Assembly (NCBI GenBank): GCA_001825665.1
Contig: MHXZ01000033.1
Coordinates: 1 to 42,721, forward strand
Source of the DNA: Planctomycetes bacterium GWF2_41_51
GTDB taxonomy: Bacteria; Planctomycetota; Phycisphaerae; Sedimentisphaerales; UBA12454
DNA length: 42,721 nucleotides
Direction: 5' to 3'
Every line of letters starts with the position of its first letter. Position 1 is the first letter of the stretch. Below the pieces are notes generated by a model. It was not told the DNA's origin. It searched no databases and saw only the letters and a list, made by a program, of their open reading frames with translations. Positions 15,044 to 40,673 of this stretch are shown in pieces. The translations under genes and the position numbers were made by a program.

Positions 15044-18000
15044 TTAATTTATATTTTCGTTTTCAACAAGCCAATTTTCAAAAATAATTGTGCCATCTCG
15101 TAAATCTACGATGCAATCTTTATTTATATCTGCCTTAAACCCCATATCATATTTCCATACATCATCACATGTTTGGGGGGATTTATTTATTCTATATTTA
15201 AACACATTTGAATTGGTTATAATTTCAAGATTGCCATTGTTAATTGTATGGCTTATAGCTATCGGAAGTAATTTGTCGTCTTTATCATACCCTCTCACTA
15301 TGACATTGTTATAACTACCTTTTAAAGTCACTCTTTCAGCCGAAATATAAGGCGTTGGAATCAACCATGAGTCGTTGGCATCACCCGAAAGAACGTAACT
15401 TCGTTTGCCAACAATGTTACCAAAATCAGTCAATGCTCCTCGAGCGTTGCAATAAGTATAAGACAACCCTTTGCTATAATCGACTCTAACATCATTTATC
15501 AAAGCTGAATATTCAACTAATTCAGCATCTTTCTGTGCAATATATCCATTCGGAGGAAGCACATAAGTTTTACCGTCAAGAGAAATAATCCAATTTGTAG
15601 CTTGATTACGGTTAACATAAACATTTAAGCCATTAGGATAACCAATATACACCTTGTTATTAAGATGATAATCATTTCTAATTGCCCATTCAGTACTTAC
15701 GAGTGTGCCGCTATCGTCTGCATAAAGGATTTGATCCGGCATAGTCATGGCATAATATGCCTGAAGTTGTCGCATCATATAATATGACTTGAGAATTGAT
15801 TCATAATCCGCAACATATTTTGCCTGACCAATTGTTAATGGTCCTTCTGCACCTCTATCAGACAAATACCCCATATCTCCATAAAGAATCTGTGTTGCCA
15901 GTCTCCAATCCAAACTTCTATCTGCGGGTACAAATAAATCTACACCGTTATCATTTTCCAGTGGCTGAATTTTCAGAAGTTTGAAATCCACAAGTAGATT
16001 AGGATCATCGGGATGATTGGTTTGAGAATATGCTGTATCACAAAGACCTGCCCACATGTATTGAACTGTTCCTTCTGACCAAACCAAACCCAATGCATCA
16101 CGTTCTGTAAGTAATAGTTTGCCATTGGCTTCAAACGACGACCGCAACATTCCGGCCCTGGTTATACGTGCATCGTAATCAACTAAGCCACCCCATGGCG
16201 CCGTATTAGTCGTTTCATCACTATATACTGCATTGAATCCAAATTTAGTTTTTAGCTGGTTGTCCCAATACAATGCCTTTTCACATTGAATACTTGGTTT
16301 AAGCATAAACGCCGAACCACAAGCCTGCGACCATTTAGAATCCTGCCAGAGAGCAACCAATTCATTCGAAAAACTGTTATTAAGGGGATGAATAATTCGG
16401 TAATCTGTATATGGAGCCACATAATAACCAAGCGATCGTAATTCAGAAACTAATTTCTTAACTGCTAAATCTCCTCCTATTTCTAAACCCACATTTGTTG
16501 TCAAAGTCATGTTTTGGCTTGCCAAGGGAGTTTTGAACATATTGCCATGGAATCTTATAAATAAATTATTTATTCCATATGCTTTGAACAATTTCCACAT
16601 ATTGATTTCATAATCTATATCAAGCGGATCATAAAAATTAAAATCACGAGCAATATATAACAGGTTCTTTGTAATATCTCCGTTCGGGGAAGGCGGATTA
16701 GGAATATTAGGCAAAACTTCAGAAATCTTATTTGATACAGTTAAAAATAACCGTTCATTGAGCCAGTTCAGATTTCCATCTGTCTTGGGATAATAATAAG
16801 CATTGTAGCTGACTCTGGCTGTACCATCGCTATTGCGAGGTTCACTTTCAAACATAAAGCGGGACGCATTGGTATTGTACCAATCCAGTATGGCTGTATA
16901 AAACAAGCCTCCGGTAACCATTAAAATCTGTGGTCGTTCCGTCTGACGATTTTCCCAAAACGGTATTGGAAATAACTTATATTCTGATGATGATTCCGTA
17001 CGGCCTATCCTGAACTCTGTTACCTTGTTCTTGTCTGCATCCTTTGCTTCAATTATCAAGCTTTTCCCTTTTATTTGAAACGTTAAATCAAATGTCAACG
17101 TCTGGCCATTTTTACTCCATCGCCAGGATGTTGAAAGATAATTGTTGGCGGGCTGGAATGTAGATGATTGCAGAGATGCCACTCCGTATGATGCTGGAGT
17201 AAAACTTACACCACTAACATTAGCGTAAATACCACCATCTTGTGTAGTCGGAAAAAAGCTGAATACACCATTATAATCTAAATCTAAATCGCTTAATGTA
17301 CCAGTTAAAGGTTGATAAATATAAGTGGTATTGCAATCGCTGCCGTTGTAAGAGAAATAATATTTGCCTCCTAAATATGTTACAGAATTTGTATATGTTG
17401 TGCCAGCATTTATAGACGGCAGAATTGTGTCCGGAGTGGTAGGAAATGGCAGCGTATCCAAGGATGGATTTGCAGGCGTGGTTGTATCCTGATAAAACCT
17501 GATTGCATCCCAATAAAGGACATCAGTGCCTGCAGCAATATTAGAAAATTGGATTGATACCAATCGCACTGGAAATGTTGTTGCTGATGCGGGGGTTCCA
17601 TGTGCCATGGACCACCATGCACCACCATCATAGCTTGTGCCACCACCAATCATATTTATCGTAAAATTATTGTTGTTATTATCCCGCAAATTAAGTGTTA
17701 TTGATACTGGTGACGAATACGTCGATACAGGCCCATGAACCCACATATCGATGCCGTCCCATGTGCCACTAATAGATATGGGTGATGGAGGAGTCAAAGT
17801 CAAATAACTGCCTGCCGACGGCGATGATATAGCAACCTTTGCTACAGTATCACGCCAGAGTTTTACATCCGAACTATTTGCCACAGTACCGGTTGCCGTA
17901 CCAGAAACAGTCCAAGCCCCGAGATTCTGATTTTCAGCGGTAATATGAGGAACATGCCGCTCAATTTTCCCTGTAATAATCTCAATCGGCTTGACTAACC

Positions 18001-18697
18001 ATGGTGCTGTATAGGTTATCTTCAGCTTTGGAGCACTCCCTGTATACGCCGAATCATAAAATTCAGCATATCCGGTAGGATCACTGCCAAGATATGTCAG
18101 CAGCAAGCCACCATTAGTATTAGGTTCGTCAACCCAACCTGCGATAACAGAAGCTGGAATTGTTATGTCAACATAATCACCATATCCATACGAGGGTCTG
18201 TGTGCTATAGTTGCTAATAACTGGTCATTGTAATCCACATTAGCAGTGCTCAACCCGGGACTGCCCGCCCATGGGATAGACTCGGTCTGAACTTTTTTAT
18301 TCCAGGTTGCTGTGTTTTCCAGCCAATCAGCATTTGCAGGTAAAACTTTATAAAGACCTATATTGATATTTGTGGGACTTGAAGTACGATTACCGCCGCT
18401 GTAATACAATGTCAAAACAGCAGAGGTTACATTAACATCCTGCAGACTCTTAATTGCTTCAATATTGAACCGCAATAACTGCCTCAACTCGCTACCAGAG
18501 GTTGTGCCTATACGCATATAAGAAGAAGCTGAATAATTAATTGTCTGGGAAGAAGCATTGATATATACATCATCAATACCGCTAAAATAATTAAGCGTAA
18601 TCTCATTAGTTGGTTGCGCAATAATCTGCGCAGTCATCAATATTGTTATTATGCATAAAGATACAAAATAATTTTCCCTTAATTTAAAAATATGCAT
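15044..18697 (-). CDS. Secreted multidomain putative glycosidase with dockerin-like tail
   Basis: The 1217-residue protein is exported (hydrophobic leader to about residue 28, ending AQIIAQP). Order of parts: DNRLRE-type beta domain (29-232, with PWAGSPGLSTANVDY); a jelly-roll-like region (240-405); a beta-sandwich-like part (415-660); a presumed barrel (about 675-1000); a C-terminal beta region; and one dockerin-like repeat (1176-1212, ADINKDCIVDL). The presumed barrel has YSDETTNTAPWGG (D827, E828) and WSEGTVQY (E875), both conserved in the paralogue at 24704-29812, so they are candidate catalytic acids. I cannot place this catalytic region in a named glycosidase family. It is the first gene of the long minus-strand cluster. 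Confidence 0.7.
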   Translation of the reverse strand: MHIFKLRENYFVSLCIITILMTAQIIAQPTNEITLNYFSGIDDVYINASSQTINYSASSYMRIGTTSGSELRQLLRFNIEAIKSLQDVNVTSAVLTLYYSGGNRTSSPTNINIGLYKVLPANADWLENTATWNKKVQTESIPWAGSPGLSTANVDYNDQLLATIAHRPSYGYGDYVDITIPASVIAGWVDEPNTNGGLLLTYLGSDPTGYAEFYDSAYTGSAPKLKITYTAPWLVKPIEIITGKIERHVPHITAENQNLGAWTVSGTATGTVANSSDVKLWRDTVAKVAISSPSAGSYLTLTPPSPISISGTWDGIDMWVHGPVSTYSSPVSITLNLRDNNNNNFTINMIGGGTSYDGGAWWSMAHGTPASATTFPVRLVSIQFSNIAAGTDVLYWDAIRFYQDTTTPANPSLDTLPFPTTPDTILPSINAGTTYTNSVTYLGGKYYFSYNGSDCNTTYIYQPLTGTLSDLDLDYNGVFSFFPTTQDGGIYANVSGVSFTPASYGVASLQSSTFQPANNYLSTSWRWSKNGQTLTFDLTFQIKGKSLIIEAKDADKNKVTEFRIGRTESSSEYKLFPIPFWENRQTERPQILMVTGGLFYTAILDWYNTNASRFMFESEPRNSDGTARVSYNAYYYPKTDGNLNWLNERLFLTVSNKISEVLPNIPNPPSPNGDITKNLLYIARDFNFYDPLDIDYEINMWKLFKAYGINNLFIRFHGNMFKTPLASQNMTLTTNVGLEIGGDLAVKKLVSELRSLGYYVAPYTDYRIIHPLNNSFSNELVALWQDSKWSQACGSAFMLKPSIQCEKALYWDNQLKTKFGFNAVYSDETTNTAPWGGLVDYDARITRAGMLRSSFEANGKLLLTERDALGLVWSEGTVQYMWAGLCDTAYSQTNHPDDPNLLVDFKLLKIQPLENDNGVDLFVPADRSLDWRLATQILYGDMGYLSDRGAEGPLTIGQAKYVADYESILKSYYMMRQLQAYYAMTMPDQILYADDSGTLVSTEWAIRNDYHLNNKVYIGYPNGLNVYVNRNQATNWIISLDGKTYVLPPNGYIAQKDAELVEYSALINDVRVDYSKGLSYTYCNARGALTDFGNIVGKRSYVLSGDANDSWLIPTPYISAERVTLKGSYNNVIVRGYDKDDKLLPIAISHTINNGNLEIITNSNVFKYRINKSPQTCDDVWKYDMGFKADINKDCIVDLRDGTIIFENWLVENENIN

Positions 18698-18719
18698 AAA
18701 TTAAATCTTTCATTTAGCA

Positions 18720-18748
18720 ATCTTACATAAAATACAAAAAACTGTTAA
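18720..18748 (-). promoter_or_regulatory. Candidate promoter of the long minus-strand cluster
   Basis: On the minus strand, TTAACA (18743-18748) and TAAGAT (18720-18725) are separated by exactly 17 bases and lie just upstream of the first gene (start 18697). The -35 box overlaps the inner arm of the terminator-like hairpin of the preceding gene, so transcription ends and restarts within about 60 bases. This is a consensus match only. Confidence 0.5.
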
Positions 18749-18772
18749 GAGTAGTAAACCCAAAACAGTTTT
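18738..18772 (-). terminator. Intrinsic terminator-like hairpin after the pseudopilin gene
   Basis: AAAACTGTT and AACAGTTTT form a perfect 9-bp stem with a 17-base loop. Read on the minus strand, the stem runs into a tract of T residues. It lies between the stop of the pseudopilin gene and the promoter of the next gene, where termination is expected. The stem is AT-rich and so only moderately stable. Confidence 0.5.
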
Positions 18773-18842
18773 AATAACAACATAAATGCAAATTCATCAT
18801 AGAAGTTATCCAGCAATTCACTAACTGCTTCACACCCTTTCC

Positions 18843-19604
18843 TTAATTATTTGTTATTATATGAATTGCACTATCTACAACATGATGTTTATTAAGAAGA
18901 CTAGTTCTGTCTTTATTAGCTACGCTCCCATCAGCCATTAGAAATTGTCCTGTTTTTAAGTGCCTAAGAGCAAGCTTATCATAAGAATTTTCCGTAAAAG
19001 GTGAAAAATAGTAAAACTGCATTTCTGGCCCGTATGGCCTGATATACGGAGGATATAGATTTACCGAATCACCCCCTAATATAAATTCAGATGTCTTCAT
19101 GCTTTTGAGATCCTTACCATCGAAACCATGTCCGTCTTTTCGAACCAAACGGCCGGTATCAATTCTCCATGGATCCCAGGTACTTAGACCTCGACAAAGG
19201 GCATATGTAAACATAGTTTGATGGTTTAAAGGAATTTTCTTGTTTTCAATGGTCCTTTGATTAGGATTACCAATTGGGCATCTGAAGAAATTCATATCCA
19301 TTGCATATTTACCTTTTATCAACATCTCTGTCCAGAGAAGACCTGTATCGCTTCCTGGTGCACCTCCACCGATATAATTTTCCCACTTCTCGAAAAGGGG
19401 CGTAGCATAGCCGCCATGATCCATACTCCAGGCAATCTGCGAAATGCCGGTTTGCTTCATACGTGTCCCACAAACAATTTTCTGGCTTTGTTTGCGAGCC
19501 CTATTTAATGATGGTATAAGAATAGACAACAATAAAGCAATGATAGATATAACAACTAAAAGCTCAACCAGTGTAAATCCTTTATCCTTCGTTCTATTTT
19601 TCAT
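18843..19604 (-). CDS. Type II/IV pseudopilin-like protein with H-X9-DG end
   Basis: The 253-residue protein begins with a classic prepilin signal: a short basic leader, then GFTLVELLVVISIIALLLSI with Gly before the methylated Phe and Glu at +5. The exported part ends with RHLKTGQFLMADGSV, matching the H-X9-DG C-terminal signature of planctomycete and Lentisphaerota pseudopilins. The prepilin peptidase would cut after the Gly, leaving a membrane-anchored protein. These occur in dozens of copies near sugar-degrading genes with no proven job; a surface scaffold or export role is possible. It is flanked by strong hairpins and has its own promoter-like sequence, so it may be a separate unit. Confidence 0.87.
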   Translation of the reverse strand: MKNRTKDKGFTLVELLVVISIIALLLSILIPSLNRARKQSQKIVCGTRMKQTGISQIAWSMDHGGYATPLFEKWENYIGGGAPGSDTGLLWTEMLIKGKYAMDMNFFRCPIGNPNQRTIENKKIPLNHQTMFTYALCRGLSTWDPWRIDTGRLVRKDGHGFDGKDLKSMKTSEFILGGDSVNLYPPYIRPYGPEMQFYYFSPFTENSYDKLALRHLKTGQFLMADGSVANKDRTSLLNKHHVVDSAIHIITNN

Positions 19605-19622
19605 ATTTTATCCCAAAATAAA

Positions 19623-19631
19623 ATTATATCA
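19623..19631 (-). promoter_or_regulatory. Extended -10 promoter of the pseudopilin gene
   Basis: Read on the minus strand the sequence is TGATATAAT, a perfect extended -10 element (TGnTATAAT), about 19 bases before the pseudopilin start. No good -35 is seen at the right distance, which is common for extended -10 promoters. It implies a leader of roughly 12 bases. Confidence 0.45.
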
Positions 19632-19648
19632 TCTCAACTTCATAAGAG

Positions 19649-19683
19649 TTATGCGGGCAGTTTAAAGATGTCTGCCCGCATAA
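19649..19683. terminator. Strong 12-bp hairpin between two surface-protein genes
   Basis: TTATGCGGGCAG and CTGCCCGCATAA pair perfectly across an 11-base loop. The hairpin lies 16 bases after the stop of the DNRLRE/dockerin/CBM9 gene and before the pseudopilin promoter, the place of a terminator, but no clear T-run follows on the minus strand. It may terminate, or protect the 3' end of the messenger. Confidence 0.6.
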
Positions 19684-19698
19684 CATGCTACAATTTAT

Positions 19699-21285
19699 TT
19701 ATTCACAAATTAATTGAGAATATCGAACTACATTTTCAGCCTTGCCTATCTGTGCATTTGGGCATATCATTCCAAATGAACCACTGCTCTTGACGCTTAA
19801 AGTTATATCAAATCCTATTTTTGAACCTTGTTGCAGATTAGTTCTTACTGTGGTAGTTCCGTTAATACCGCCATAGTTATCGTATGGAATAAGTTTCATC
19901 TCATAGATTAGATGATCGTGGCCACTAATTACAGTACGATTAATTTTAGCTTCAATACCTGGATTACCTGTTTCCATAGGATAACCACCGAAAGGAACAC
20001 CTGTAGGCCATATAGCCCAAGTAGTGGCTAGATCGTTTCCCAAACCAACAGACACATGTTGAGCATTACTCCAAGTAAACAAAGGATTTGTTGGTATACG
20101 ATTGTAATAATCACCCTGAATAAACACTTCGATATTATCTTGAGCGTCCCAGTCGTAAGGAGAGCTTGTGTTCCAATACACAGGATCACTATCATCAACA
20201 ATAACGGCTGCATAAATTACATCATCTGTCGCACTGTACATCAAGCACATATAAGCATTGCTATAGTTCATTGGAAAGTCATAATATTCCTTATCTATTT
20301 TAATCCATTTAGAACCACACCAATTTGTTGGACTGTAATCAAATACAGGCCATTCGCTTAAATCACCATTTATTGTGACAGTTGCAGGAGCTGCTGATGC
20401 AAAATACATACTTACTCCTTCTGACGGCAGATCAGGACAAGGACCGCATTCCCTTGGATCATTGCAGTTTAACCATGTATCAGAAAGAACATCAAGATCT
20501 TTCAGGTTCACAGAACAATCTTTATTGATATCTCCTTTCATACCCAGTCCAGCCTGCCATATATCATCACAATCTTCTAATGTTACATAATCCACAACCA
20601 ATGTAGGAAAATCTGCCCCCCATTCATTGCTTTTGAATAGTCCTAAATCTAAATCAGGAACAGGATCACACTTGAGAAGAACCCCGGCGTTTGTTTGAGT
20701 TATCCATTCTTCAATAACCGAAGGTGGGAGAGTTATGTCTATATATCCCGTATCAGAACCTGTATTATATTCGAATGTAGTCAAAGGTTCTGCCGCATAA
20801 TCAACACCAGGCGTGCTCAAACCTGCACTTCCAGCCCAAGGGAGTGAACCCGTCCAATCTGGTTCTTCACCTGATTGACTTTTGTAAGCCCAGCATACGT
20901 CCCATTCTACCCACCCAGCATTTGCGGCAAGTATTTTATGTACACCAACATTAATAGTACCGCCTGAATATACGCTAGTATATGTACCGGCTCTGAATAA
21001 ACGTAACTTCGCTGAAGTAATCACTCTATTTTGAATACCTGCCAGACTTGAAACATCAAAATAAAGAATACTTCTTTGCTCATCTGAATATTCACTATTT
21101 CCGCCTACCTGAATATACATCCAAAAGCAATCTTCTCCAGTATTGTGATTAGTCTGACTTGAAATAAGTGTATCATACATGGGATTGAATGAGGCTGTGC
21201 CTGTACCAGCAAAACCTAATTGTGCTATTGCCGAAAAAATAATCATGCCAATTATAAGCAATGCATTTATGTATTTAAGTTTCAT
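19699..21285 (-). CDS. Secreted DNRLRE / dockerin-like / CBM9-like protein
   Basis: The 528-residue secreted protein has a leader ending near residue 26 (AQLGFAG). Parts in order: a DNRLRE-type domain (about 30-232, with LPWAGSAGLSTPGVDY, the motif shared with the two large putative glycosidases); a dockerin-like repeat in the middle (about 238-275, GDINKDCSVNLKDLDVLSD); a Cys-rich linker (CNDPRECGPCPD); and a CBM9-like domain (about 290-528, with INGDLSEWPVFD and WDAQDNIEVFIQGDYYN). There is no catalytic domain, so it is probably a binding or structural surface protein. A dockerin-like repeat placed internally is unusual. GGAAGGG precedes the start. A strong hairpin follows the stop. Confidence 0.82.
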   Translation of the reverse strand: MKLKYINALLIIGMIIFSAIAQLGFAGTGTASFNPMYDTLISSQTNHNTGEDCFWMYIQVGGNSEYSDEQRSILYFDVSSLAGIQNRVITSAKLRLFRAGTYTSVYSGGTINVGVHKILAANAGWVEWDVCWAYKSQSGEEPDWTGSLPWAGSAGLSTPGVDYAAEPLTTFEYNTGSDTGYIDITLPPSVIEEWITQTNAGVLLKCDPVPDLDLGLFKSNEWGADFPTLVVDYVTLEDCDDIWQAGLGMKGDINKDCSVNLKDLDVLSDTWLNCNDPRECGPCPDLPSEGVSMYFASAAPATVTINGDLSEWPVFDYSPTNWCGSKWIKIDKEYYDFPMNYSNAYMCLMYSATDDVIYAAVIVDDSDPVYWNTSSPYDWDAQDNIEVFIQGDYYNRIPTNPLFTWSNAQHVSVGLGNDLATTWAIWPTGVPFGGYPMETGNPGIEAKINRTVISGHDHLIYEMKLIPYDNYGGINGTTTVRTNLQQGSKIGFDITLSVKSSGSFGMICPNAQIGKAENVVRYSQLICE

Positions 21286-21344
21286 AATTTACCCTTCCAA
21301 AGAAAACATGCATCTCTATAAATTTTTATAACAACTCATCCTTA

Positions 21345-22136
21345 TTACGGATTATTGCTCATCATATATTGTTCGGCAAACTCCGCAAAATCAAGAAAAT
21401 CAATAATACAATCTTTGTTAAGATCACCAGGCATTCCCTGCCCCGCCTCCCAGATTTGTTCACAAGTCAATATAAAAGGTGCGGGTTCGGCATCAGTAGT
21501 TACTTTTATATTTTCAATTGCACAAAAAATTTCATCTGGAATATTGTCACCTGGATAAGCATCCCAGCAACGAATCTCAATGCATTTCAAATTATTATTT
21601 GGGCTAAACTCGTATGCAAATGGCGTAACATCATAAGAAGCATAACTTAGAGAGGACATATAATACAATGTATCTGGGACATCCACTGTTCCTGCAAATA
21701 TACTGAATTGAGGCATATCACCATAACCAATATAACCCTCATAACCAAATTCAATTTTTGTAATTACCTCGCCTTCCGGCGCAAACCATCTGGCTCCGGT
21801 ATAATAATGCTCGCCTTCAGGAATAAAATAATCGGGGCTATTTACATTTGGATCAGCATAACCACCTGGTTGTCTAAGAGGTGAAACAACCCAAAGCATT
21901 GCATCGTGTCCCAACATCCGCATGAGTTTAGGATTTGTTGAGTGATATTCTATAGGCTGCCATTCATAATGACCAGGTTCATAATACCCCGGCCAAGAAC
22001 CACCTAAATCTCCCGACCATACTCCCAAGCCAGGAGAGCCACCGACGTAATCATACACGGCAGCACCGGCATATGTCATAGCTAAAAAAATAATGAAATG
22101 ACCCATGTATATTTTAATCTTTAGATGTTTTTCCAT
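21345..22136 (-). CDS. Secreted surface protein ending in a dockerin-like repeat
   Basis: The 263-residue protein has a signal peptide (HFIIFLAMTYAGA) and then a domain starting AVYDYVGGSPGLGVWSGD. Distinct motifs follow: RMLGHDAMLWVVSP, YFIPEGEHYYTGARWFAPEG, EVITKIEFGYEG and FSIFAGT. The C-terminus is a single dockerin-like repeat (CEQIWEAGQGMPGDLNKDC, then IIDFLDFAEFAEQYM). The central domain is clearly related to the next gene (22269-22973), which carries a PEP-CTERM tail instead. Function unknown; a surface-displayed binding domain is likely. The ATG at 22136 has GGAG upstream; a TTG 15 bases earlier is possible but has no spacing for a ribosome site. Confidence 0.8.
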   Translation of the reverse strand: MEKHLKIKIYMGHFIIFLAMTYAGAAVYDYVGGSPGLGVWSGDLGGSWPGYYEPGHYEWQPIEYHSTNPKLMRMLGHDAMLWVVSPLRQPGGYADPNVNSPDYFIPEGEHYYTGARWFAPEGEVITKIEFGYEGYIGYGDMPQFSIFAGTVDVPDTLYYMSSLSYASYDVTPFAYEFSPNNNLKCIEIRCWDAYPGDNIPDEIFCAIENIKVTTDAEPAPFILTCEQIWEAGQGMPGDLNKDCIIDFLDFAEFAEQYMMSNNP

Positions 22137-22228
22137 TTTGCAATTCTCCAAATAATTAAGAAGAAATATAAAAACTACAATAAAACCATACCCTTACACC
22201 AGTCGTAAATCGAGATACTTTACAAATA

Positions 22229-22250
22229 GCTGGGCTCATAAGAGCCCAGC
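22229..22250 (-). terminator. Hairpin after the PEP-CTERM gene
   Basis: GCTGGGCTC and GAGCCCAGC form a perfect 9-bp GC-rich stem with a 4-base loop (ATAA), 18 bases beyond the PEP-CTERM gene stop. On the minus strand it is followed by TATTTGT, a weak T-rich tract. It fits a terminator separating the two paralogous surface-protein genes. Confidence 0.6.
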
Positions 22251-22268
22251 CTAATTACATATTAAATC

Positions 22269-22973
22269 TTATACTTTTCGTCTTGAAATAAAGCTAAAGA
22301 GGCTAATAGCCAAAAGTGTCATTGTAGTCGGTTCTGGAATAGCTGTTGTTACTTTTATGTTCTCAAATGCTGCACCCAAACAATCATCCATACGATCCCC
22401 AGCAAATAATTCCCAAACATTTACTTGAATTGACTTTATGCCTTCGGCCACATCAAACGTAAGTTCAAATGGAACCAATGTCCATGATGAGTATTCCAGA
22501 TTGGACATATATGAAAGCGTATTTGGCGATGTAGCACCGGCATAGATACTAAATTGTGGAAAAGAATGTCCCTCGTGACCACCTCCACCAAAAGTACCGG
22601 AATATGCAAATTCGATTTTAGTGATTACTTCGCCTTCTGGGGCTGTCCACATCGCACCCACAACCTCATGCTGTCCTTCGGGAAGATAATAGTAATAATT
22701 ATCTGGATCCGGGTCTGCATAACCCCATGTAGTATTGAAGATTGGACCAACTGACCAAAACATCTTATCGTGCCCCAGCATCCTTGTTAATTGGCTACCA
22801 CCGCCAGTATGAGATTCAACTTTTTCCCACATATAATGACCATTGTTGTCTCCCGACCATACCCCCAGCGCCCCTGCGCCAGAATAGTCATAAACGCCAG
22901 CATTAGCAAACATTGCCATGACCAGCAAAGAGACAATAAAAACACAAACACTCAAACCATTAACTTTCTTCAT
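22269..22973 (-). CDS. PEP-CTERM surface protein
   Basis: The 234-residue protein has a signal peptide (VCVFIVSLLVMAMFANA), a beta-rich domain (AGVYDYSGAGALGVWSGD, LTRMLGHDKMFWSVGP, YYYYLPEGQHEVVGAMWTAP, GEVITKIEFAYSG) and a PEP-CTERM sorting signal at the end: IPEPTTMTLLAISLFSFI followed by RRKV. Such tails are recognised by an exosortase, which is not in this window. Its domain is homologous to that of the neighbouring dockerin-tailed protein. GGAGG precedes the start. It may be an extracellular matrix or glycan-binding protein; nothing indicates an enzyme. Confidence 0.87.
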   Translation of the reverse strand: MKKVNGLSVCVFIVSLLVMAMFANAGVYDYSGAGALGVWSGDNNGHYMWEKVESHTGGGSQLTRMLGHDKMFWSVGPIFNTTWGYADPDPDNYYYYLPEGQHEVVGAMWTAPEGEVITKIEFAYSGTFGGGGHEGHSFPQFSIYAGATSPNTLSYMSNLEYSSWTLVPFELTFDVAEGIKSIQVNVWELFAGDRMDDCLGAAFENIKVTTAIPEPTTMTLLAISLFSFISRRKV

Positions 22974-23074
22974 TTTACTTCCTCCAGAAAAAAAACTTCA
23001 AACATATATAATCCTTAAACAACAAGTTTATGGATTCAAGCTTTCTATCATTAAATATAAAACTATCAGAAAAT

Positions 23075-23104
23075 ATCACAGTTGTTATTTATTTAAACTG
23101 TGAT
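23075..23104 (-). terminator. Hairpin overlapping the stop of the regulator gene
   Basis: ATCACAGTT and AACTGTGAT make a perfect 9-bp stem; the regulator stop codon lies in the loop. On the minus strand it is followed by ATTTTCTG, a weak tract; on the plus strand by six T residues. It could end the regulator transcript, but no plus-strand gene needs it. Confidence 0.35.
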
Positions 23105-24248
23105 TGTTTTTTATTCCAGTCGGATTATAACTGACTGCCTTATCAATAACCGCACGAACATCAGAGTGAAATTCGCTAATACTAGGCGCATACAGTACAG
23201 GAACAGGCAATACAATTTCTATAGAGCCTTCCGATTTGCCATCCAGCCTGTCAAATATCAATTCGGCGGCTCGTTCTCCCATAAATTTAAAATCTGGATT
23301 TGTTGTGGGCCAGTCCTCAGTTCGACCATTTGCAGCATTATCAAAGCCTATCAGTATTACATCTTCAGGGACTTTATAGCCTTTTGCCCGCAAAAATCTT
23401 ATAGCTAACGGGACATAATTATCATAAGGTAATATGATCGCATCAGCATTAATTTCAGAAGAAACAAGCTTCGTAAGAGCATTAAAGAAATTCTGCATAC
23501 CAGTATCATTGATATCATCGAAAGACAAAACATACTCTAAATCGCTTTTTCCTGCTTCGGCAAATGCTTTTTTATACCCTATCACCCTGTCTTGTACAGA
23601 TCTGCTGATATAATTCGTTCCGGCCTTAAGCATCGCGATTTTCTTTCGACCAGATTGTATTAAACTTTTGGTCAATTGGTATGTAGCTGTTACATTATCA
23701 AAAATAATGTGCGGACGTTTCATATCTGGCTTATATAAATCGACTACCACTATATTAAAATCCAACAACTCCCTTGCAAGATAATCCTCTGCTCCTTGTG
23801 GCCGCTGGGTATTTGGGAAAAGTACCACACCCTCACAGCCTCTGTTTTTCATTGATAAAATCTGCGATTTTTCTTCTTCAATATTCCATTCACTTTTGGC
23901 TAACTCTAAAATAGCACCTTTTTCCCTGACCACTTTTTCAATGCCCTCAAGGAGTTGAAAAGAAATGTGATCATGAAGAACACTTGCAACAAAACCAATT
24001 CTCTTCTCTTTAATGCCCTTTATTTGAGTATTCACAGGTGGGAGTTCCTCAACATATATGCCACTACCACGTCTTTTAGTAACCGCCCCCTCAGCAGCAA
24101 GAATTTCTATTGCCTTGCCGACTGTCGGCGAACTAACATTATAACGAGAAGCCAGTTCCTTAACTGTTGGCAACTTTTGCCCTTTCTTTACGCCAACTAC
24201 GTAGTCGGTTCTAATTTTTTTCTGCAATACTGCTGTTACGTTCGTCAT
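23085..24248 (-). CDS. GntR-LacI hybrid transcriptional regulator
   Basis: The 387-residue regulator has an N-terminal GntR-type winged helix (about 10-68: GQKLPTVKELASRYNVSSPT, then VGKAIEILAAEGAV and RRGSGIYVEE) joined to a LacI/periplasmic-binding-like sensor domain (about 82-370: RIGFVASVLHDHISFQLLEG, CEGVVLFPNTQ, VPEDVILIGFDNAANGR). The layout is that of Bacillus AraR, so it probably represses until a sugar binds. It diverges from the plus-strand cluster and has its own promoter with TTGACA and TAAAAT 17 bases apart. GAGGT precedes the start. It is the likely switch for both sugar clusters; the ligand is unknown. Confidence 0.88.
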   Translation of the reverse strand: MTNVTAVLQKKIRTDYVVGVKKGQKLPTVKELASRYNVSSPTVGKAIEILAAEGAVTKRRGSGIYVEELPPVNTQIKGIKEKRIGFVASVLHDHISFQLLEGIEKVVREKGAILELAKSEWNIEEEKSQILSMKNRGCEGVVLFPNTQRPQGAEDYLARELLDFNIVVVDLYKPDMKRPHIIFDNVTATYQLTKSLIQSGRKKIAMLKAGTNYISRSVQDRVIGYKKAFAEAGKSDLEYVLSFDDINDTGMQNFFNALTKLVSSEINADAIILPYDNYVPLAIRFLRAKGYKVPEDVILIGFDNAANGRTEDWPTTNPDFKFMGERAAELIFDRLDGKSEGSIEIVLPVPVLYAPSISEFHSDVRAVIDKAVSYNPTGIKNNHSLNK

Positions 24249-24266
24249 TATTTACCTCATAAAAGA

Positions 24267-24295
24267 ATTTTATTTAATTCACACAAAAATGTCAA
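24267..24295 (-). promoter_or_regulatory. Promoter of the regulator gene
   Basis: Read on the minus strand, TTGACA (24290-24295) and TAAAAT (24267-24272) are 17 bases apart, a near-perfect housekeeping promoter. It would start transcription about 12 bases before the regulator ATG. Confidence 0.65.
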
Positions 24296-24327
24296 GCAAA
24301 TAATTTAATGCTAAACAATTTTTTCTT

Positions 24328-24356
24328 TTGACAACACCTTTCCTACTTGATATATT
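24328..24356 (+). promoter_or_regulatory. Promoter of the plus-strand sugar cluster
   Basis: TTGACA (24328-24333), a 17-base spacer and TATATT (24351-24356) form a near-consensus housekeeping promoter facing the 1702-residue gene. Its -35 box faces that of the regulator promoter, with 32 bases between them, so one bound repressor could block both. Confidence 0.65.
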
Positions 24357-24444
24357 TACTTCCTATACTAAGCATAGAAATAAATTGCTTATTAAATAAT
24401 AAAGACCTATTAATTACCAATACTATGTTTACTACTTTCTTTGA

Positions 24445-24456
24445 TTGTATACACAA
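24445..24456. promoter_or_regulatory. Possible operator palindrome
   Basis: TTGTATACACAA has inverted TTGT/ACAA arms around four bases, similar in style to AraR operators. It lies about 90 bases downstream of the plus-strand -10 box, a position from which a repressor could block elongation. No second clear copy was found in the window, so this is tentative. Confidence 0.25.
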
Positions 24457-24690
24457 CCAAGAATCTTAAACGATGTGTATTTTGTTATTATAGGACAAGT
24501 AAATTTAATAATCTTACATACTGATTATAATAATAATATCAAATCATTCTAATGTTTTAAATGAAGTAAATATGTTTTCTTTAAACTTTTACTTTGTTTC
24601 AATAATAATTTAAAAAAATGAATTAAATTTACAACTTTTTGGATTAGGATTCGCATTTTTAAACCAATAAGAGACTATATTCTATCTTTT

Positions 24691-24698
24691 AAGGAGGT
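24691..24698 (+). promoter_or_regulatory. Full-consensus ribosome binding site
   Basis: AAGGAGGT lies five bases before the ATG at 24704, the strongest ribosome site in the window. It fixes the start of the 1702-residue protein and suggests high expression when induced. Confidence 0.85.
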
Positions 24699-24703
24699 AA
24701 AAC

Positions 24704-27700
24704 ATGAAAAACTCAAAAATCTTAAATGCCTCTTGCCTGCTCATCTTTGTTTTTGTTTGCTCGTCGTTAGCTGAAATCGCCACTTTTAATGCCAATACTG
24801 GAATTGAGGATACCTTTATAGATGGTTATGTTGGTGGCCAACACGACATCTGGGGAGATTACAGATACCTGCAATGCGGCAACTTATCAGGTTATGGCGA
24901 ACAAAAAATTATCCTTCACTTCAATGTTTCAGGTTTGATTGGTAAATACAAGAGCGTTGATTCACTTCAATTAAGGTTATACGTGGCAGGTGGTAATCCA
25001 GCTTATGATCAAGGAATAGTAAATATAGGCATTTACGAAATCTGCACCGCAGATACCGATTGGCTTGAAACTACCGCAACTTGGGCATATAAAGAACAAC
25101 TTGGAAATTCTGGTAATGATTATGCAGGCTCTTACTCTTGGGTTGGTAGTGCAGGGTTGGGTACATCCGCAACAGATTATGTCACCGATCCTCTTTACGC
25201 ATTTGATTGTAATCTTATAACTGATGTTGGCTTTATTGACATCGACTTACCTGTTTCATTAATTGAAACTTGGACAAAAAGTACAAATGCAGGATTACTT
25301 ATTAAATGCACAATCCTGCCCGATAGGGATATTGCACATTTCAATAGCTCGGAATGTGGAAGCAGCTACTATGGCCCAAACCTGCTCGTTACTTATACGC
25401 CACTTATTAATACCGAAACTATTACCTTCGATTCTCAAAGTGGCATGGAAGATGTATACATACATGAAATGTATCCGACAGTAAACTGCAATGACTCCAC
25501 TCGGCTATGGATAGGTTCATATAATGATTATGACATCAAATCATTGATAAAGTTCGATGTTCGCTCTCTCAGTGATATAAATGACATCAATATAAGTTCT
25601 GCTAAATTAACCCTCTTTTATAATGATACTCCTACTATTGATGTAAATTTCCCTATTGGCATTTATAAAGTTTTAGCCGCAAATGCAGATTGGGATCAAT
25701 CCACGGCAACATGGAGAAACAAAAATCAGACAACATCTACGCCTTGGGCTGGCAGCTATGGATTAAACACTCCTGTTACAGATTATAATATACAAAGCCT
25801 TGGAATATTCTTCTATGACCATAATAAAGTATATCCATCCACTGTTGATGTAAACATTCCTGCCCATGTAATTAAAGATTGGATTAATAATCCTAATTCC
25901 AATGGCGGCTTTCTGCTGAAATACCTTGGCAATGATCCAAATGCTTATGCTCAATTCTACGACTCACTTTATGCCAGCAACATAGGACCAAAACTAAGCA
26001 TAACATATACAGCACCGTGGCAGACAAAACCGATTGAGCTGCTGACCGGCAAAGCAGAAGCTCATACGCCTCAAGTAACTGCCGCAAACCAGAGTAATTT
26101 CACGGGATGGACAGTTTCCGGTACGAAAAGTGCAACCGGCACTTTAACAAACAGTTCAGATTTGCAATTATGGCGAAGCACTGTTGCCAAGCTTGCTATA
26201 ACAGTGCCTACTTCGGATAGCAATATAACCTTGACTCCACCATCACCGGGAATATCTATTTCGTCCGGTGATAATATAGACATCTGGGTTTACGGCCCCA
26301 GTTATGGGTCGCCCACAATATCGATGAACCTTACAAGTGGAGGCAGCCCATTTACAGTAACCATGGTTGGTAATGTTTCAAATTATCTCGGTAATCCATG
26401 GTGGACGATGTTCCATGGTAAAATACCTGCAGGTAAAACATTTCCTGTAAAGCTGGTGTCCATAGCTTTTGATAATCTAACAAACGGTAGTGACGTTCTG
26501 TATTGGGATGCGATAAGTTTTTATACAGATACAACCTCGCCTGCCAATCCATCCTTGGGTACACTTTCGTTCCCGACCACGACGGATACCATATTGCCGT
26601 CTATAAACGCGGGCACCTCATATACCAATTCGGTACAAGTGGTTGACAGCAACACATGGAATTTCAAGTATGTCGGCAGTGACTGTAATGTTACCTACAC
26701 TTACCATGCAGCGACAGGTACGCTAAACGATATAACTGGAAACTATAATGACGTGTACACTTTTTATCCTACAATCAACGGCGGTATTGTTGCGAACGTC
26801 GGTGGTGAAAGTTTTACTCCCGATTCCCCCGGAACTCCACAATTACTTTCTTCTACACTTGTATCAGGAGATAATTATCTTTACACATGGTGGCAATTGA
26901 CCAAAAACGGCCAAACTATACAATACGACCTTACGTTCCAGATAAAAGGCAAAACTCTAGTCATAAGAGCAAGAAATCCTGACAAAAATGTTATAACCGA
27001 ATTTAGAATAGGCCGTACGTCTACATCAGCGGATTATAAGCTATTCCCAATGCCGTTTTGGGAAAATCGTCAGGCAGAACGCCCACAGATTTTAATGATG
27101 ACTGGCGGTCTGTTCTTTACTGCTATGCTAGATTGGTACGAGACTCTCGCGTCTCGCTTTATGTTCGATAGCAGCCCTCGCGATGGCACTGGTACGGTGA
27201 TGGTAAGCAATAAGGCGTACTACGGATATCCCAAAACAGACGGCACCTTAAACCCGATCAGAGAGCGATTACTCATAACCGTATCAGACAAGATTGCTGA
27301 AGTACTGCCGAATATACCAAATCCGCCTTCGCCAAATGGCAGCACGACATCTAATCTTCTTTATGTCTGCCGCGATTTCTGCTTATTGGACCCGCTGGAT
27401 ATTGACTATGAAATTGCTTTATGGCAACTTCTCAAGGCTTATGGAGTAAATGACATGCTTATTCATTTTACTCCAGATATGTTTAAAACCCCAGTGGCAA
27501 ACATGAATGGTTTTTCTCTTACAACTGATGCGGGATTGCCATTTGGCGGAGACGATGCCGTGATACGGCTGGTGGATGAACTTCAAACATTAGGCTACAA
27601 GTTCGGAGTATATACAGATTATAGAATTATTCATCCGCTTAGCAAAGAGTTTTCAAATGACCTTGTCGCTCTTGATCGAGGTGATCACAATTCTGACTGG

Positions 27701-29812
27701 CTTACCGCATGTGGTTCTACATTTATGCTCAAACCAAGCATAGCGTCTACAAAGGCCGCAAATTGGGACGATGGGCTCGTAACTAAATTCGGGTTCGATG
27801 CCGTTTATAGCGATGAGATGACCAACACAGCCCCATGGGGGGGATTGATTGACTACGACGCAAGGGTCTCCGGAGCCGGACAAATATCGGCAACATTTAA
27901 TGCTATCGGCAAAGTACTGCTTAATCAGCGAGATTCTTACGGCTTAACATGGTCGGAAGGCACGGTTCAGTATTTGTGGGCCGGACTTTGCGACACCGCA
28001 TATTCCCAGAACAATCATCCCTTTGATGACCCGAATTTGTTGGTCGATTTTAAGCTATTGAAAATGCAGCCGCTGGAAAATGATAATGGAGTAGATCTAA
28101 TTCAGCCATATGACAAAGGTTTGGATTGGCGGCTCGCGACACAGATCGTTTTTGGCAACATGGGATACTTATCCAGCACCGGCATCGAAGGCGATCTGAC
28201 AATGAAGCAGGCTAAAAAAATTAGTTCCAGTCTTTATGAGCCTATTCTCAAATCATATTATATGATGCGCCAGTTACAGACATACTATTGGATGTCGTTA
28301 CCGACTCTCATTCAGTATCCCGATAATACTGAAACACTGGTGAGCACCGAATGGGCAGTCAGAAACAACTGGATCTGCGGCAAAGTATATACTCAATACC
28401 AAAGTGGTCTTGAGGTTTATGTAAATCGTAATAGCACTTCCAACTGGAATGTCTCACTCGGCGGAACATCTTACACATTAGACCCGAACGGATATGTCGC
28501 GTATAGACCGGCAGATATGCTCGAATATTCCTCTCTTGTAAGCGGCCACAGAGTCGATTACAGCGAAGGACCGATGTATATTTATTGCAATGGCCGCGGG
28601 ACAAGTACAAGCTTCCCAAAGATAACCGCGGCAAGAAGCTATGCCGTCACCAATGATGCCACTTATACTTGGTTAACACCGACTCCATTTATCGCTACCG
28701 AACAAGTAACTCTAAAGGGATATACGAGCATTACAGGCGTTACAGGCTTCGATCAGTTTGGAAATTCACTGCCGAACAGTATTACCTACTCAATAAACAG
28801 CAACAACCTCCTGCTGACAACCCAGTCGGATGTCTTTAAATACAGGATACAGGCTTCAGATCCCGGACTGGCTATTAGTCCAAATCCTTCTAACAGCGCA
28901 ACAGGAGTTGCCTTAACGCCAACTCTAACTTGGGCATCTGGAAACAACACCGTTTCACATGATGTTTATTTTGGAACAAATCAGACAAGTGTTACCAATG
29001 CCGCCCGTTACTCTGCTGAGTTCAAGGGCAACCAGGCCGGCACAAGCTATGCCTCCGGCACACTTAATGCAAATACAATCTATTATTGGCGTATTGATGA
29101 GGTTGGCAATGGCAAAACTACAACAGGCGCAGTCTGGAGTTTTACTACAATTCCTCCAAATCCACCAACATTTGTCGCCGCGGGAGCAGCCGCACACAAC
29201 ACGGTAGGAATCACGCCTGCACTTCCGGCTGGCATTGCAACAAATGATATTTTGCTACTTTTCGTTGAAACGTATAATCAGGCTATTTCGATAGCCAATC
29301 AAAATGGTGGAACGTGGACTCAAGTTACAAATTCGCCGCAGGGAACTACCGGCACAAGGCTTACGGCTTTCTGGTCAAGATATAATGGCACTCAAGGTGC
29401 ACCAACAACATCTGATTCAGGCGATCATCAGATTGGAAGGATTATAGCTATTCAAGGCGCTACAACATCTGGTAATCCATGCGATGTTACAGCCGGTGTT
29501 GTTGAATCCACATCGGATACAAGCGGCTCAATTCCTGGAACGACTACGACGGTTGCCAATACTCTTGTGGTATTGGCCGTAGCTACAAGTCTGCCTGATT
29601 CCAACTATGATAATAACAGGTTCTCGAGTTGGACAAATGCAAACCTGACAAGTCTTACGGAGCGTGTCGATTGTAGTCGGAACTCAGGCAATGGCGGGGG
29701 TCTTGGCATAGCGACGGGTATTAAGGTAACATCTGGTGCTTACGGCAACACTGCTGTTACGCTTGCGACATCAGCGACTAAAGGTATGATGAGCATTGCG
29801 ATTAAGCCTTAA
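24704..29812 (+). CDS. Secreted 1702-residue multidomain putative glycosidase
   Basis: Exported (leader to about residue 23, VCSSLAEI). Parts: two tandem DNRLRE-type domains (25-232 and 236-437, with WVGSAGLGTSATDY and WAGSYGLNTPVTDY); a jelly-roll-like region (445-608); a beta-sandwich-like part (615-865); a presumed barrel (about 880-1200) with YSDEMTNTAPWGG (D1037, E1038) and WSEGTVQY (E1085); a C-terminal beta region; a fibronectin III-like domain (about 1390-1484, LTPTLTWASGNNTVSHDVYF); and a beta-rich end (1485-1702). By eye it is well over half identical to the protein at 15044-18697 from the second DNRLRE domain to about residue 1380, but it lacks the dockerin-like tail. The catalytic region was not recognised as a known family. 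GC content is somewhat higher here than in the following genes. Confidence 0.72.
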   Translation: MKNSKILNASCLLIFVFVCSSLAEIATFNANTGIEDTFIDGYVGGQHDIWGDYRYLQCGNLSGYGEQKIILHFNVSGLIGKYKSVDSLQLRLYVAGGNPAYDQGIVNIGIYEICTADTDWLETTATWAYKEQLGNSGNDYAGSYSWVGSAGLGTSATDYVTDPLYAFDCNLITDVGFIDIDLPVSLIETWTKSTNAGLLIKCTILPDRDIAHFNSSECGSSYYGPNLLVTYTPLINTETITFDSQSGMEDVYIHEMYPTVNCNDSTRLWIGSYNDYDIKSLIKFDVRSLSDINDINISSAKLTLFYNDTPTIDVNFPIGIYKVLAANADWDQSTATWRNKNQTTSTPWAGSYGLNTPVTDYNIQSLGIFFYDHNKVYPSTVDVNIPAHVIKDWINNPNSNGGFLLKYLGNDPNAYAQFYDSLYASNIGPKLSITYTAPWQTKPIELLTGKAEAHTPQVTAANQSNFTGWTVSGTKSATGTLTNSSDLQLWRSTVAKLAITVPTSDSNITLTPPSPGISISSGDNIDIWVYGPSYGSPTISMNLTSGGSPFTVTMVGNVSNYLGNPWWTMFHGKIPAGKTFPVKLVSIAFDNLTNGSDVLYWDAISFYTDTTSPANPSLGTLSFPTTTDTILPSINAGTSYTNSVQVVDSNTWNFKYVGSDCNVTYTYHAATGTLNDITGNYNDVYTFYPTINGGIVANVGGESFTPDSPGTPQLLSSTLVSGDNYLYTWWQLTKNGQTIQYDLTFQIKGKTLVIRARNPDKNVITEFRIGRTSTSADYKLFPMPFWENRQAERPQILMMTGGLFFTAMLDWYETLASRFMFDSSPRDGTGTVMVSNKAYYGYPKTDGTLNPIRERLLITVSDKIAEVLPNIPNPPSPNGSTTSNLLYVCRDFCLLDPLDIDYEIALWQLLKAYGVNDMLIHFTPDMFKTPVANMNGFSLTTDAGLPFGGDDAVIRLVDELQTLGYKFGVYTDYRIIHPLSKEFSNDLVALDRGDHNSDWLTACGSTFMLKPSIASTKAANWDDGLVTKFGFDAVYSDEMTNTAPWGGLIDYDARVSGAGQISATFNAIGKVLLNQRDSYGLTWSEGTVQYLWAGLCDTAYSQNNHPFDDPNLLVDFKLLKMQPLENDNGVDLIQPYDKGLDWRLATQIVFGNMGYLSSTGIEGDLTMKQAKKISSSLYEPILKSYYMMRQLQTYYWMSLPTLIQYPDNTETLVSTEWAVRNNWICGKVYTQYQSGLEVYVNRNSTSNWNVSLGGTSYTLDPNGYVAYRPADMLEYSSLVSGHRVDYSEGPMYIYCNGRGTSTSFPKITAARSYAVTNDATYTWLTPTPFIATEQVTLKGYTSITGVTGFDQFGNSLPNSITYSINSNNLLLTTQSDVFKYRIQASDPGLAISPNPSNSATGVALTPTLTWASGNNTVSHDVYFGTNQTSVTNAARYSAEFKGNQAGTSYASGTLNANTIYYWRIDEVGNGKTTTGAVWSFTTIPPNPPTFVAAGAAAHNTVGITPALPAGIATNDILLLFVETYNQAISIANQNGGTWTQVTNSPQGTTGTRLTAFWSRYNGTQGAPTTSDSGDHQIGRIIAIQGATTSGNPCDVTAGVVESTSDTSGSIPGTTTTVANTLVVLAVATSLPDSNYDNNRFSSWTNANLTSLTERVDCSRNSGNGGGLGIATGIKVTSGAYGNTAVTLATSATKGMMSIAIKP

Positions 29813-35984: not shown

Positions 35985-38900
35985 ATGAATAACAAAATTA
36001 AATTCTGTTTGGTATCTATCTCTTTAATGGTTTTAAGCAACTGTGTTTGGGCACAAGAAACTATAAATGCTTCAAACATTTCTACACAAACTGCTTTCGA
36101 TTTTAAAAACACCATTACTCCCAACCCAACATGGAATTGGAATGGCTGGCAAACTGTTGAATTGAAAAATGGATATTTCCAAGGCAAGGCCAATGGGAAA
36201 ACAAATAATACTATCACTTCCCCTGAACTCAATATTAACGCTGACAAATTCCGTTATCTGGAATTATATGTTTCTAATGAAGGAGTAGTACTGCAAACAA
36301 GCCTGTACTTCTTTACAGATAACACTACCATTTCCAGCGACAAACACATCTTTACAGAAATCGAGAATCCTCGGCTGTCATTCCCGCAAAAATTAATCAT
36401 AGACCTTGGTGCCTGCCCTAATTGGAAAGGAACCGTAAAAAAGATTATGCTTTCTTTCCCGCCTCGGTCAGTAGGGTCACTTTTTATAATATATGGACTT
36501 CAGTTTGTCGAAAAGCCAAACTATCTCTACAATGGGAACCTGCTCCTGAATGGAGATAACACACTGCCAATGGATTGGACAATTCGACAATCCGATAATG
36601 TTGCGATAACCCATATAAGTCCTGATAAAACTAAATCAGGTCAGGCAGAACTGGCATTGACCGCATCATCTGACAATGCTGGTAAAGCAGTAGTTTCGAC
36701 TGAACTTAAACACATGCACAATGAGCATTACTACCGCCTTACACTGAACTATCTTTTAGAGGGCGGAGCATCTTGTGTTGGTAAGGTCGTACTCCTGAAC
36801 CCTGATGGCAGTGTATTGCAAGATATTCCAGCCGCAATTGAAAAAGAAACACAAAATGTTACCTCACGTTTTCAAGTGCCCAAACTGGCATATATCGGAA
36901 AGGTAATATTTGATGCAAACCTGCCTGCCGGCAGCCAATTAATAATTAAAAATGCACAACTTGACTATCTTGAAAGCGGCATTGGAAATTGGAGTTCATC
37001 GTGGATTTGGCTGCCACAGACTTTGGAGCAACAGTCGGCTTATTTTTTTAAAAAAATCATCGTTGATAAGAGTAATCTCAAAAACGCCATACTTCAGGCA
37101 ACATGCGATGATAGGTTTAGGCTATTTTTGAATGGCGAGCAAATACTTCAAGGCGAACACTGGGCAAAAGTTGAAGTTTTCGATATTCTGTCGCAATTGG
37201 AAGATGGCGAGAACATCCTCACCGTCCATGGATTTAACACACAGAGCTACAACGCAGGCCTGCTTGCTGAAATTCGTCTAACTGATTCCAAAAACAATCT
37301 CCAGCTAATTACAACTGATGATTCATGGAAAGTCACTGAGAACAAACCGGCAGATTGGCCATCTACTAAATCTGAACAATGGCAAAATGCAAAAGTGATT
37401 GGGCAACCTCCCTGCAATCCATGGTCAACAATTAAATATTATACGGAGGTACCGTCTCCAAAACCCGCCAGAAACGTAGCCGCATTTAAGGACATCGCAA
37501 AAAAACATACCAAATATTCCGTAGATACCTCGCTGGGCTATCCTCGCATTTGCTCTGACGGCAAAATTCTTACCCCACTCATATTTGGCGGACCATGTGA
37601 GTATCCATCCGCTAATTTTGCAGCTTACGAAAACGCTGTACGTAGCGGCTTTCATATTTATCGCATCTGGCTTGAGTTTGGCAGAGCTTGGCATCAGAAT
37701 AGCTATAATGTCGATCTATCACAATTTGATAGTCAAATCGAGGAACTTGTAACAGCTGATCCAAATGCGAGATTCTTCTTTTTGTTTAGGATTAGCGCGC
37801 CAAGTTGGTGGCTGGAAAAGTATCCTGACGATGTTTGCCGTTTCAGCGACAATATGATTAACGGGGCTTATGGAATACTGCCTTCGACCAGTTCAAAACG
37901 ATGGCGAAACGATGTCACACAGTACCTAAACACACTCATAAAACACACAGAATCAGCATGGTATTCAGATCGAATAATCGCATATATGCCAAGCAGCCAC
38001 TGTGGCCCAGAGTGGGTTTTGACAACCAAAACGAACCAATATCCTGATTACAGTCCAGCAATGATATCTTTCTTCCGCAACTGGCTGAAAGAAAAATATA
38101 AGGATGTTGAACAGTTGCAAAAAGCATGGAAAAATGAAACTATAACTTTCGATACAGCACAAGTTCCTCCTAGAGAATTACGTGATGGAGAGCAATATTT
38201 CATTGATCCCGCTATCTCACAACAGGTTATTGATTACAATCGTTGCTTAAATGAGTCCGTCTCCACCGCTATACTTGAATTTCAGGAACATATCAATAAA
38301 CTATGTAGTAATCGCTGTCTGAATTTTGCTTACTACGGTTACAATTTCGAACTCGCTCAATTAGCTATTTATCCTCAGGTTACCGGCCACTACGATCTTA
38401 CAAGAGTTATGAATTCCCAATATATCAATGGTTTAGCATCCCCTACCAGTTATACATACAGACAAGGTGGTTCTGTAAGTGGTGCTGTTACAGCAGTTTC
38501 TAGCCTTGCGATACATAATCAACTCTGGATACAAGAGGCGGATATCCGAACGAATCTAACAATAGATAGTTTCGGACATAAAACCGCTTTCAATATGGAA
38601 GATGCAGTTGCTCAAAACATTCGTGAATTCGCCTATGCAATTACTCGCAGATTTGGTATCTGGTATTTTGACATGAGCGGCGGCTGGTTCGACAACCCTT
38701 TATTCGAGAAAGACTTTCGTACTATGCATAAAGCCTATGACTGGGCTATCCAGCGGCCAATTTCATGGCACAGCCCGATAGCGGTTTTCTTCGATGAAAA
38801 AGTGCTCGACCGCACAAGTCTTCTCAGAGAACACTGGGGAGCAGACAATATCAAAGAAATGCTTGGCTCATTCCGGTATGGCCTTGGACGATGCGGTATA

Positions 38901-39704: not shown

Positions 39705-40673
39705 ATGAAAACACCAAAAGAAAATTTCATAAAAGCTTTAGAAGGTGGACAGCCTTCTGGACGAGTTCCTCACTTTGAACTGGTATTCTTTTTAACAATG
39801 GAAGCCTTTGGCAAAGTGCACCCAAGGCATCGCATCTTTTGTCAATGGGACCAAATGTCTGACAAGGAAAAACAACTGCATCGTCAAGACATAGCGAAAA
39901 CATACATAGATACTGCCAAAAAATATGAGCATTCGGCTATTTTTTTTCATCCAGCTGGAGGATGGAATGATAACAATTTAATCCCTGAAATCATAAAGTG
40001 TCTGGAGATAATACGAGAAATTGCAGGAAATAATTACTTCACAATGATCCATGGCGATGCAACACATGGAGTTCCCGATGGCGAACAAATGCTGCAATTC
40101 GCAAATGATTTAGTCGATAATCCACAAAAGCTTAAGGACGAAGCCGAACTAATGATCGAAGAAGCCTTAAAGAAAGCCCAGATTTACAAAAAAGCTGGAG
40201 TTCTCGATGGTTTCGCTTTATGTACTGATTATTGTCTGAATCAGAGCCCTTTTCTTTCACCAGCGATGTTTGATGAATTCGTGACACCCTTTCTAAAACA
40301 ACTCATTGCTGGTTATCGAGAAATGGGATTTTACACAATTAAGCATACCGATGGCAACATAATGCCAATACTTGATAGTCTTGTTGAATGCAACCCACAC
40401 GCTTTGCACAGTCTCGATCCACAAGGCGGAGTAGATATTGCAGAAGTAAAAAAACTTGTTGGCAACAAGGTCTGCCTAATTGGGAATGTAAACTGTGGTC
40501 TGCTGGATACTGGCACTGATGACGAAGTAATCGAGTCCGCTCGCTATGCTCTCAAGCATGGAATGCAGGGCGGAGGGTATATTTTCTCTACAAGTAACTG
40601 TATTTATACAGGCATGAAACTACAACGCTACGAATTGATACATAATATTTGGAAAAATGAAGGGAGTTATTGA
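39705..40673 (+). CDS. Uroporphyrinogen decarboxylase-fold protein (second)
   Basis: The 322-residue cytoplasmic protein opens with MKTPKENFIKALEGGQPSGR, the usual start of this superfamily, and includes ALCTDYCLNQSPFLSPAMFD, FYTIKHTDGNIMPILDSLVE, HSLDPQGGVDI and VCLIGNVNCG. The HTDGN segment aligns with the zinc HxC of MtaA-type methyltransferases, with Asp for Cys; a Cys in STSNCIYTG may match the second one. No corrinoid protein is nearby, so methyl transfer is unproven. It closes the plus-strand cluster, 54 bases after the GH42-like gene. The other cluster also ends with a member of this superfamily as its next-to-last gene. Confidence 0.82.
   Translation: MKTPKENFIKALEGGQPSGRVPHFELVFFLTMEAFGKVHPRHRIFCQWDQMSDKEKQLHRQDIAKTYIDTAKKYEHSAIFFHPAGGWNDNNLIPEIIKCLEIIREIAGNNYFTMIHGDATHGVPDGEQMLQFANDLVDNPQKLKDEAELMIEEALKKAQIYKKAGVLDGFALCTDYCLNQSPFLSPAMFDEFVTPFLKQLIAGYREMGFYTIKHTDGNIMPILDSLVECNPHALHSLDPQGGVDIAEVKKLVGNKVCLIGNVNCGLLDTGTDDEVIESARYALKHGMQGGGYIFSTSNCIYTGMKLQRYELIHNIWKNEGSY

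Follow-up and report, generated by a model that had tools for sequence, protein, structure and literature searches.

The window analysed here, a stretch of 42,721 nucleotides from Planctomycetes bacterium GWF2_41_51, encodes two large, apparently secreted proteins, P0001 and P0002, that are built on a common core. The question raised by this locus is to which group of proteins the core belongs and what it would do. The two genes and their recognisable parts are as follows.

15044..18697, (-): gene of P0001, a secreted protein of 1217 aa
18014..18574, (-): CBM96/DNRLRE module of P0001, residues 42-228
15173..17995, (-): conserved core of P0001, residues 235-1175
15047..15169, (-): dockerin-like C-terminal tail of P0001
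24704..29812, (+): gene of P0002, a secreted paralogue of P0001 of 1702 aa
about 24842-25102, (+): first DNRLRE/CBM96 module of P0002, the weaker match
25448..26005, (+): second DNRLRE/CBM96 module of P0002
26027..28858, (+): conserved core of P0002, 62% identical to that of P0001

Both open reading frames lie where the original prediction had placed them, and in both the N-terminus is signal-peptide-like, as judged by eye. In P0001, the signal peptide is followed by the CBM96/DNRLRE module, a jelly-roll, a β-sandwich, a TIM barrel, a C-terminal sandwich and the dockerin-like tail; in P0002, it is followed by two DNRLRE modules, the core common to P0001 and extra C-terminal modules. The common core is about 940 residues long, and the proteins are 58% identical over 1161 aligned residues (BLASTP, E = 0). 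The likeness of the cores is far above chance level. The long shared core that had been proposed is therefore present, and the motifs YSDE(T/M)TNTAPWGG and WSEGTVQY are found in both proteins as had been described.

The only Pfam or NCBIfam models matched in the two proteins are those of the N-terminal CBM96/DNRLRE modules, one in P0001 and two in P0002. Comparison of the core with Pfam profiles, which had been suggested as a check, gave no family match even at E ≤ 10, and NCBIfam gave none at that level either. Neither P0001 nor P0002 matches Glyco_hydro_101 (PF12905) at E ≤ 10, and neither these two nor the further sequences L003, L004 and L006 match DUF5696 (PF18952) or DUF6259 (PF19773). 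Only some distant relatives reach the DUF5696 cut-off: L019 and L020 exceed it over the first part of the barrel. They belong to a sister group of the family (L019, L020, L112, L113) with members above that cut-off, and these matches provide a link between the named, uncharacterised DUF5696 and the GH129 superfamily. Among the papers covered by our literature search, none names DUF5696 or DUF6259. The jelly-roll (core residues 1-170; 17485-17995, (-)) resembles the spirochaete flagellar sheath protein FlaA with a profile E of 3.9e-5, a likeness that points to a common β-fold with such sheath proteins rather than to a function.

The connection to a known superfamily appears when profiles or structures are compared. 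No single sequence of the window matched GH129 or GH101 directly, and a search of the PDB with a single sequence gave no match. A profile of 15 relatives, however, matched the GH129 enzyme NagBb in the PDB with an E of 1.7e-5 and, more weakly, DagB/ZgGH129; with a profile of 57 sequences, which is dominated by a large clade, the E for NagBb was only 0.019. By hhalign, the family aligned with a NagBb-containing profile at E 4e-14 over 318 columns, and another such comparison gave 7e-9, all hhalign E-values being those of single comparisons. The GH106, GH42-like and GH38 proteins of the same window, used as controls, gave E-values of 0.17-0.31. Because these controls were single sequences, the fair contrast is with L124, a single GH129-like protein, to which the family profile aligned at E 3.9e-10, with WSEG opposite GSEC.

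An AlphaFold2 model of the core, built from 15 sequences (pLDDT 83.6, pTM 0.83), consists in order of a jelly-roll, a β-sandwich (core 200-421), a TIM barrel (about 434-750) and a C-terminal sandwich. The jelly-roll, sandwich and barrel originally proposed are thus reproduced, with a further β-sandwich after the barrel, and the succession of β-sandwich and GH101/GH129-type TIM barrel that we sought as a mark of the superfamily is present. In a Foldseek search with this model, GH101, DagB and NagBb rank first. VIA-align, whose targets were Foldseek's own list and which hardly covered the N-terminal jelly-roll, gave its best structural match with DagB/ZgGH129 (5opq; Z 23.1, 548 aligned residues, 5.1 Å), followed by NagBb (5wzp; Z 20.3, 522 aligned, 3.8 Å), and a Z of 14.6 for GH101. 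Profile comparison and fold together place the core clearly in the GH101/GH129 superfamily, as a separate branch. The original view that it could be assigned to no known glycosidase family is correct for the family and incorrect for the superfamily; likewise, a clear match to a characterised glycosidase, the finding that had been named as contrary to that view, was obtained at the superfamily level and not at the family level.

The position of the core in this superfamily draws attention to two acidic residues of each protein.

16217..16219, (-): D827 of P0001, predicted nucleophile, end of barrel strand 4
16073..16075, (-): E875 of P0001, predicted acid/base, end of barrel strand 5
27812..27814, (+): D1037 of P0002, predicted nucleophile
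27956..27958, (+): E1085 of P0002, predicted acid/base

In core numbering, D827 and E875 are D593 and E641. Both residues, and the 48-residue spacing between them, are kept in 57/57 aligned sequences, and in the AlphaFold2 model they stand at the ends of consecutive strands (589-592 and 637-641), giving the aspartate after strand 4 and the glutamate after strand 5 sought for the superfamily. By hhalign, D827 aligns with D435 of NagBb and E875 with E478, the latter alignment adjoining a gap. Through L124, the same pair is aligned with D486/E517 of DagB, and E478 of NagBb falls on E517 of DagB. Mutants of DagB at D486 and E517 are inactive (PMC5698469). Since the same paper states that Asp435 alone of NagBb is conserved in DagB, the match of E478 to E517 is a reading of our own alignment. 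Of the three residues first put forward as catalytic, D827 and E875 are retained, being invariant and lying on the NagBb/DagB pair, and E828 is rejected, the position being V in 53 of the 57 sequences. The catalytic mechanism predicted for the family is well supported by homology. D827 would attack the anomeric carbon, and E875 would serve as the acid/base in a double-displacement reaction, with the N-terminal DNRLRE/CBM96 modules and the jelly-roll probably binding polysaccharide.

We propose, with a probability of about 0.78, that P0001 and P0002 are secreted, probably retaining, α-glycosidase-like enzymes of a separate, unnamed branch of the GH101/GH129 superfamily, in which D827 is the nucleophile and E875 the acid/base. 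For the pair, we infer enzyme activity, retention of configuration and a role in glycan breakdown. As catalysis by the core is a prediction and several binding modules are attached to it, one might suppose that the core is a relative that binds glycans and has no catalytic activity. Neither acid varies among the 57 sequences, which come from several phyla; a degenerate binding protein would not be expected to keep both, and we consider this supposition quite improbable. Even less credence is given to the idea that the core is nearer to the α-glycosidases of GH13, GH31, GH36 or GH97 and resembles GH129 through the shared barrel only. Foldseek and VIA-align do list these families too, and because the GH13 and GH36 barrels also reach Z 13-16, the fold alone is not specific. 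However, the GH129-type structures reach Z 19-23 over 520-550 residues, with the N-terminal sandwich aligned as well, and the families matched by the sequence profiles are GH129 and, in the case of some members, DUF5696/DUF6259/GH101, with none of GH13, GH31 and GH36 among them.

P0001 and P0002 might also be regarded as true GH129 enzymes, removing α-GalNAc or a close analogue with a NagBb-type metal site. The fold is the same, the catalytic pair is aligned, and there are MocA-type and nagB-like genes nearby; GalNAc-active enzymes exist in the MocA fold (GH109). This proposal is nevertheless unlikely in view of the sugar pocket. H320, D322 and H366 of NagBb, which we take to be pocket/metal-site positions, are three of the positions at which comparison with the wild type shows a change in the quadruple mutant 5wzq, in each case to Ala. 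In the profile alignment they correspond to R715, H717 and Y763 of P0001, so the NagBb residues are not retained, and the region of NagBb W398 aligns near C793, with W398 apparently not retained either. Almost every family member keeps H717, P0002 having T at this position. In addition, the tree puts the family apart from the GH129-like rows on a long branch, though long branches weaken this separation. Since the NagBb pocket positions are replaced, the family should not be filed as GH129, and it probably does not act on GalNAc in the manner of NagBb. The residues W487, D489, E494, W559 and H595 (core numbering), conserved in the family, are mostly replaced in the clade of P0001, P0002 and L004, which may act on something different again from the rest of the family.

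Comparison with the characterised systems, glycosidases that degrade mucin or carrageenan, places the proposed branch at some distance from each. NagBb, the GH129 α-N-acetylgalactosaminidase of Bifidobacterium bifidum (5wzn), has the same sandwich and TIM-barrel fold, with about 10% identity to the core; it has no signal peptide (PMC7232152), whereas P0001 and P0002 appear to have one. DagB (ZgGH129), the α-1,3-(3,6-anhydro)-D-galactosidase of Zobellia galactanivorans, is 12% identical to the core, its D-to-E spacing is 31 rather than 48, and it is reported to take a catalytic contribution (Asp202) from the second monomer (PMC5698469). The GH101 endo-α-N-acetylgalactosaminidases (SpGH101, EngBF) have the same barrel class, but are only 8-10% identical with an rmsd of about 7 Å. 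We found no characterised member of the family itself. We incline, with some reserve, to the view that the core founds a new GH family within the GH101/GH129 superfamily, one that has hundreds of members across several bacterial phyla and a sugar specificity new to that superfamily, the pocket of P0001, P0002 and L004 being further altered. The family is nameless with respect to Pfam and NCBIfam and may already carry a CAZy number. With its placement and a defined catalytic pair, the mechanism can be tested directly, and the search for the substrate has a point of departure.

A contig scan of genomes with P0001 alone found no relative. Relatives were found in 15 of 392 genomes spread over the phylum (the window's own genome counted) and in 16 of 397 genomes of the class, and when representative genomes were scanned with aligned relatives as the query, at least 391 loci were confirmed. 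The 80 loci listed, of the 391, are from Planctomycetota, Verrucomicrobiota, Lentisphaerota, Kiritimatiellota, Armatimonadota (including Zipacnadia), one Poribacterium and a few unclassified records; the first three of these phyla and Armatimonadota account for most of the matches listed. With that number of loci and several phyla among the matches listed, the family is widespread. Since neither Pfam nor NCBIfam names its core, a family of at least 391 loci is likely to escape notice when carbohydrate degradation is annotated routinely. P0001 and P0002 are each other's nearest relatives; together with L004, to which they are 34-37% identical, they form a well supported clade, and their identity to the large clade is only about 25-30%. 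Another contig of the same genome carries a third, distant copy (29%), clustered with genes for GH2-, GH39- and GH10-like proteins and for an SSF transporter. A conserved gene neighbourhood was considered as a clue to the substrate and dropped: the neighbourhoods of 86 loci contain only scattered matches to the window's other genes, the exception being the SSF transporter beside the third paralogue, which is 40% identical.

Within the window, the minus-strand block after P0001 encodes a GH106, an SSF transporter, two MocA-type oxidoreductases and enolase-type, ceramidase-like, nagB-like and CBM9 proteins; the plus-strand block after P0002 encodes GH38, HAD, GH63-like, GH42-like and URO-D-like proteins, and a LacI/GntR-type regulator lies between the blocks. 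These neighbours, which speak for the proposed glycosidase reading, give the locus the look of one for glycan utilisation; rhamnose and mannose are plausible components of the glycan. Two features bear on its transcription.

24267..24356, no strand assigned: back-to-back promoter-like sites between the regulator gene and P0002, by consensus match only, the overall count of such matches not clearly above shuffles
18738..18772, (-): terminator-like hairpin between the prepilin-like gene and P0001 (-12.9 kcal/mol, z -3.0)

P0001 and P0002 had been described as the first genes of two divergent clusters. This holds for P0002, which is the first gene after the divergent region and has a promoter-like match upstream at 24328-24356. 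It does not hold for P0001, which is preceded by five same-strand genes (the regulator, two small secreted proteins, a DNRLRE protein and the prepilin-like gene). The hairpin suggests that P0001 may start its own transcript. Because those five genes separate P0001 from the divergent promoter region, the argument from first gene to first cut is weak, and that the pair makes the first cut on the substrate does not follow from gene order. A shared operator of the two upstream regions was unconvincing, as they have one common, AT-rich 11-mer. By eye, the GH42-like protein has a signal-peptide-like start and the GH106, GH38 and GH63-like proteins no obvious one. Cutting outside by P0001 and P0002, followed by trimming inside, would fit this pattern, although gene order does not show it.

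Some other features of the window were noted. The protein at 35985-39650, (+), combines a rhamnosidase-N-like region with a weak GH42 barrel. Two uroporphyrinogen-decarboxylase/MtaA-like proteins flank the sugar clusters, at 2498-3784, (-), and 39705-40673, (+); the former has no Pfam match and is so assigned by eye only, and two other family members have homologues of it nearby. Three neighbouring secreted proteins carry, internally or at the C-terminus, a dockerin-like segment (C..IW......DINKDC.V...D), at these places.

15047-15169, 20461-20571 and 21354-21464, (-): dockerin-like segments

The segment is found at 23 places in the genome in all, 22 of them besides the tail of P0001, and another neighbour of the proteins that bear it has a PEP-CTERM motif at its end. 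The dockerin-like segment may serve as a tag for surface sorting or assembly.
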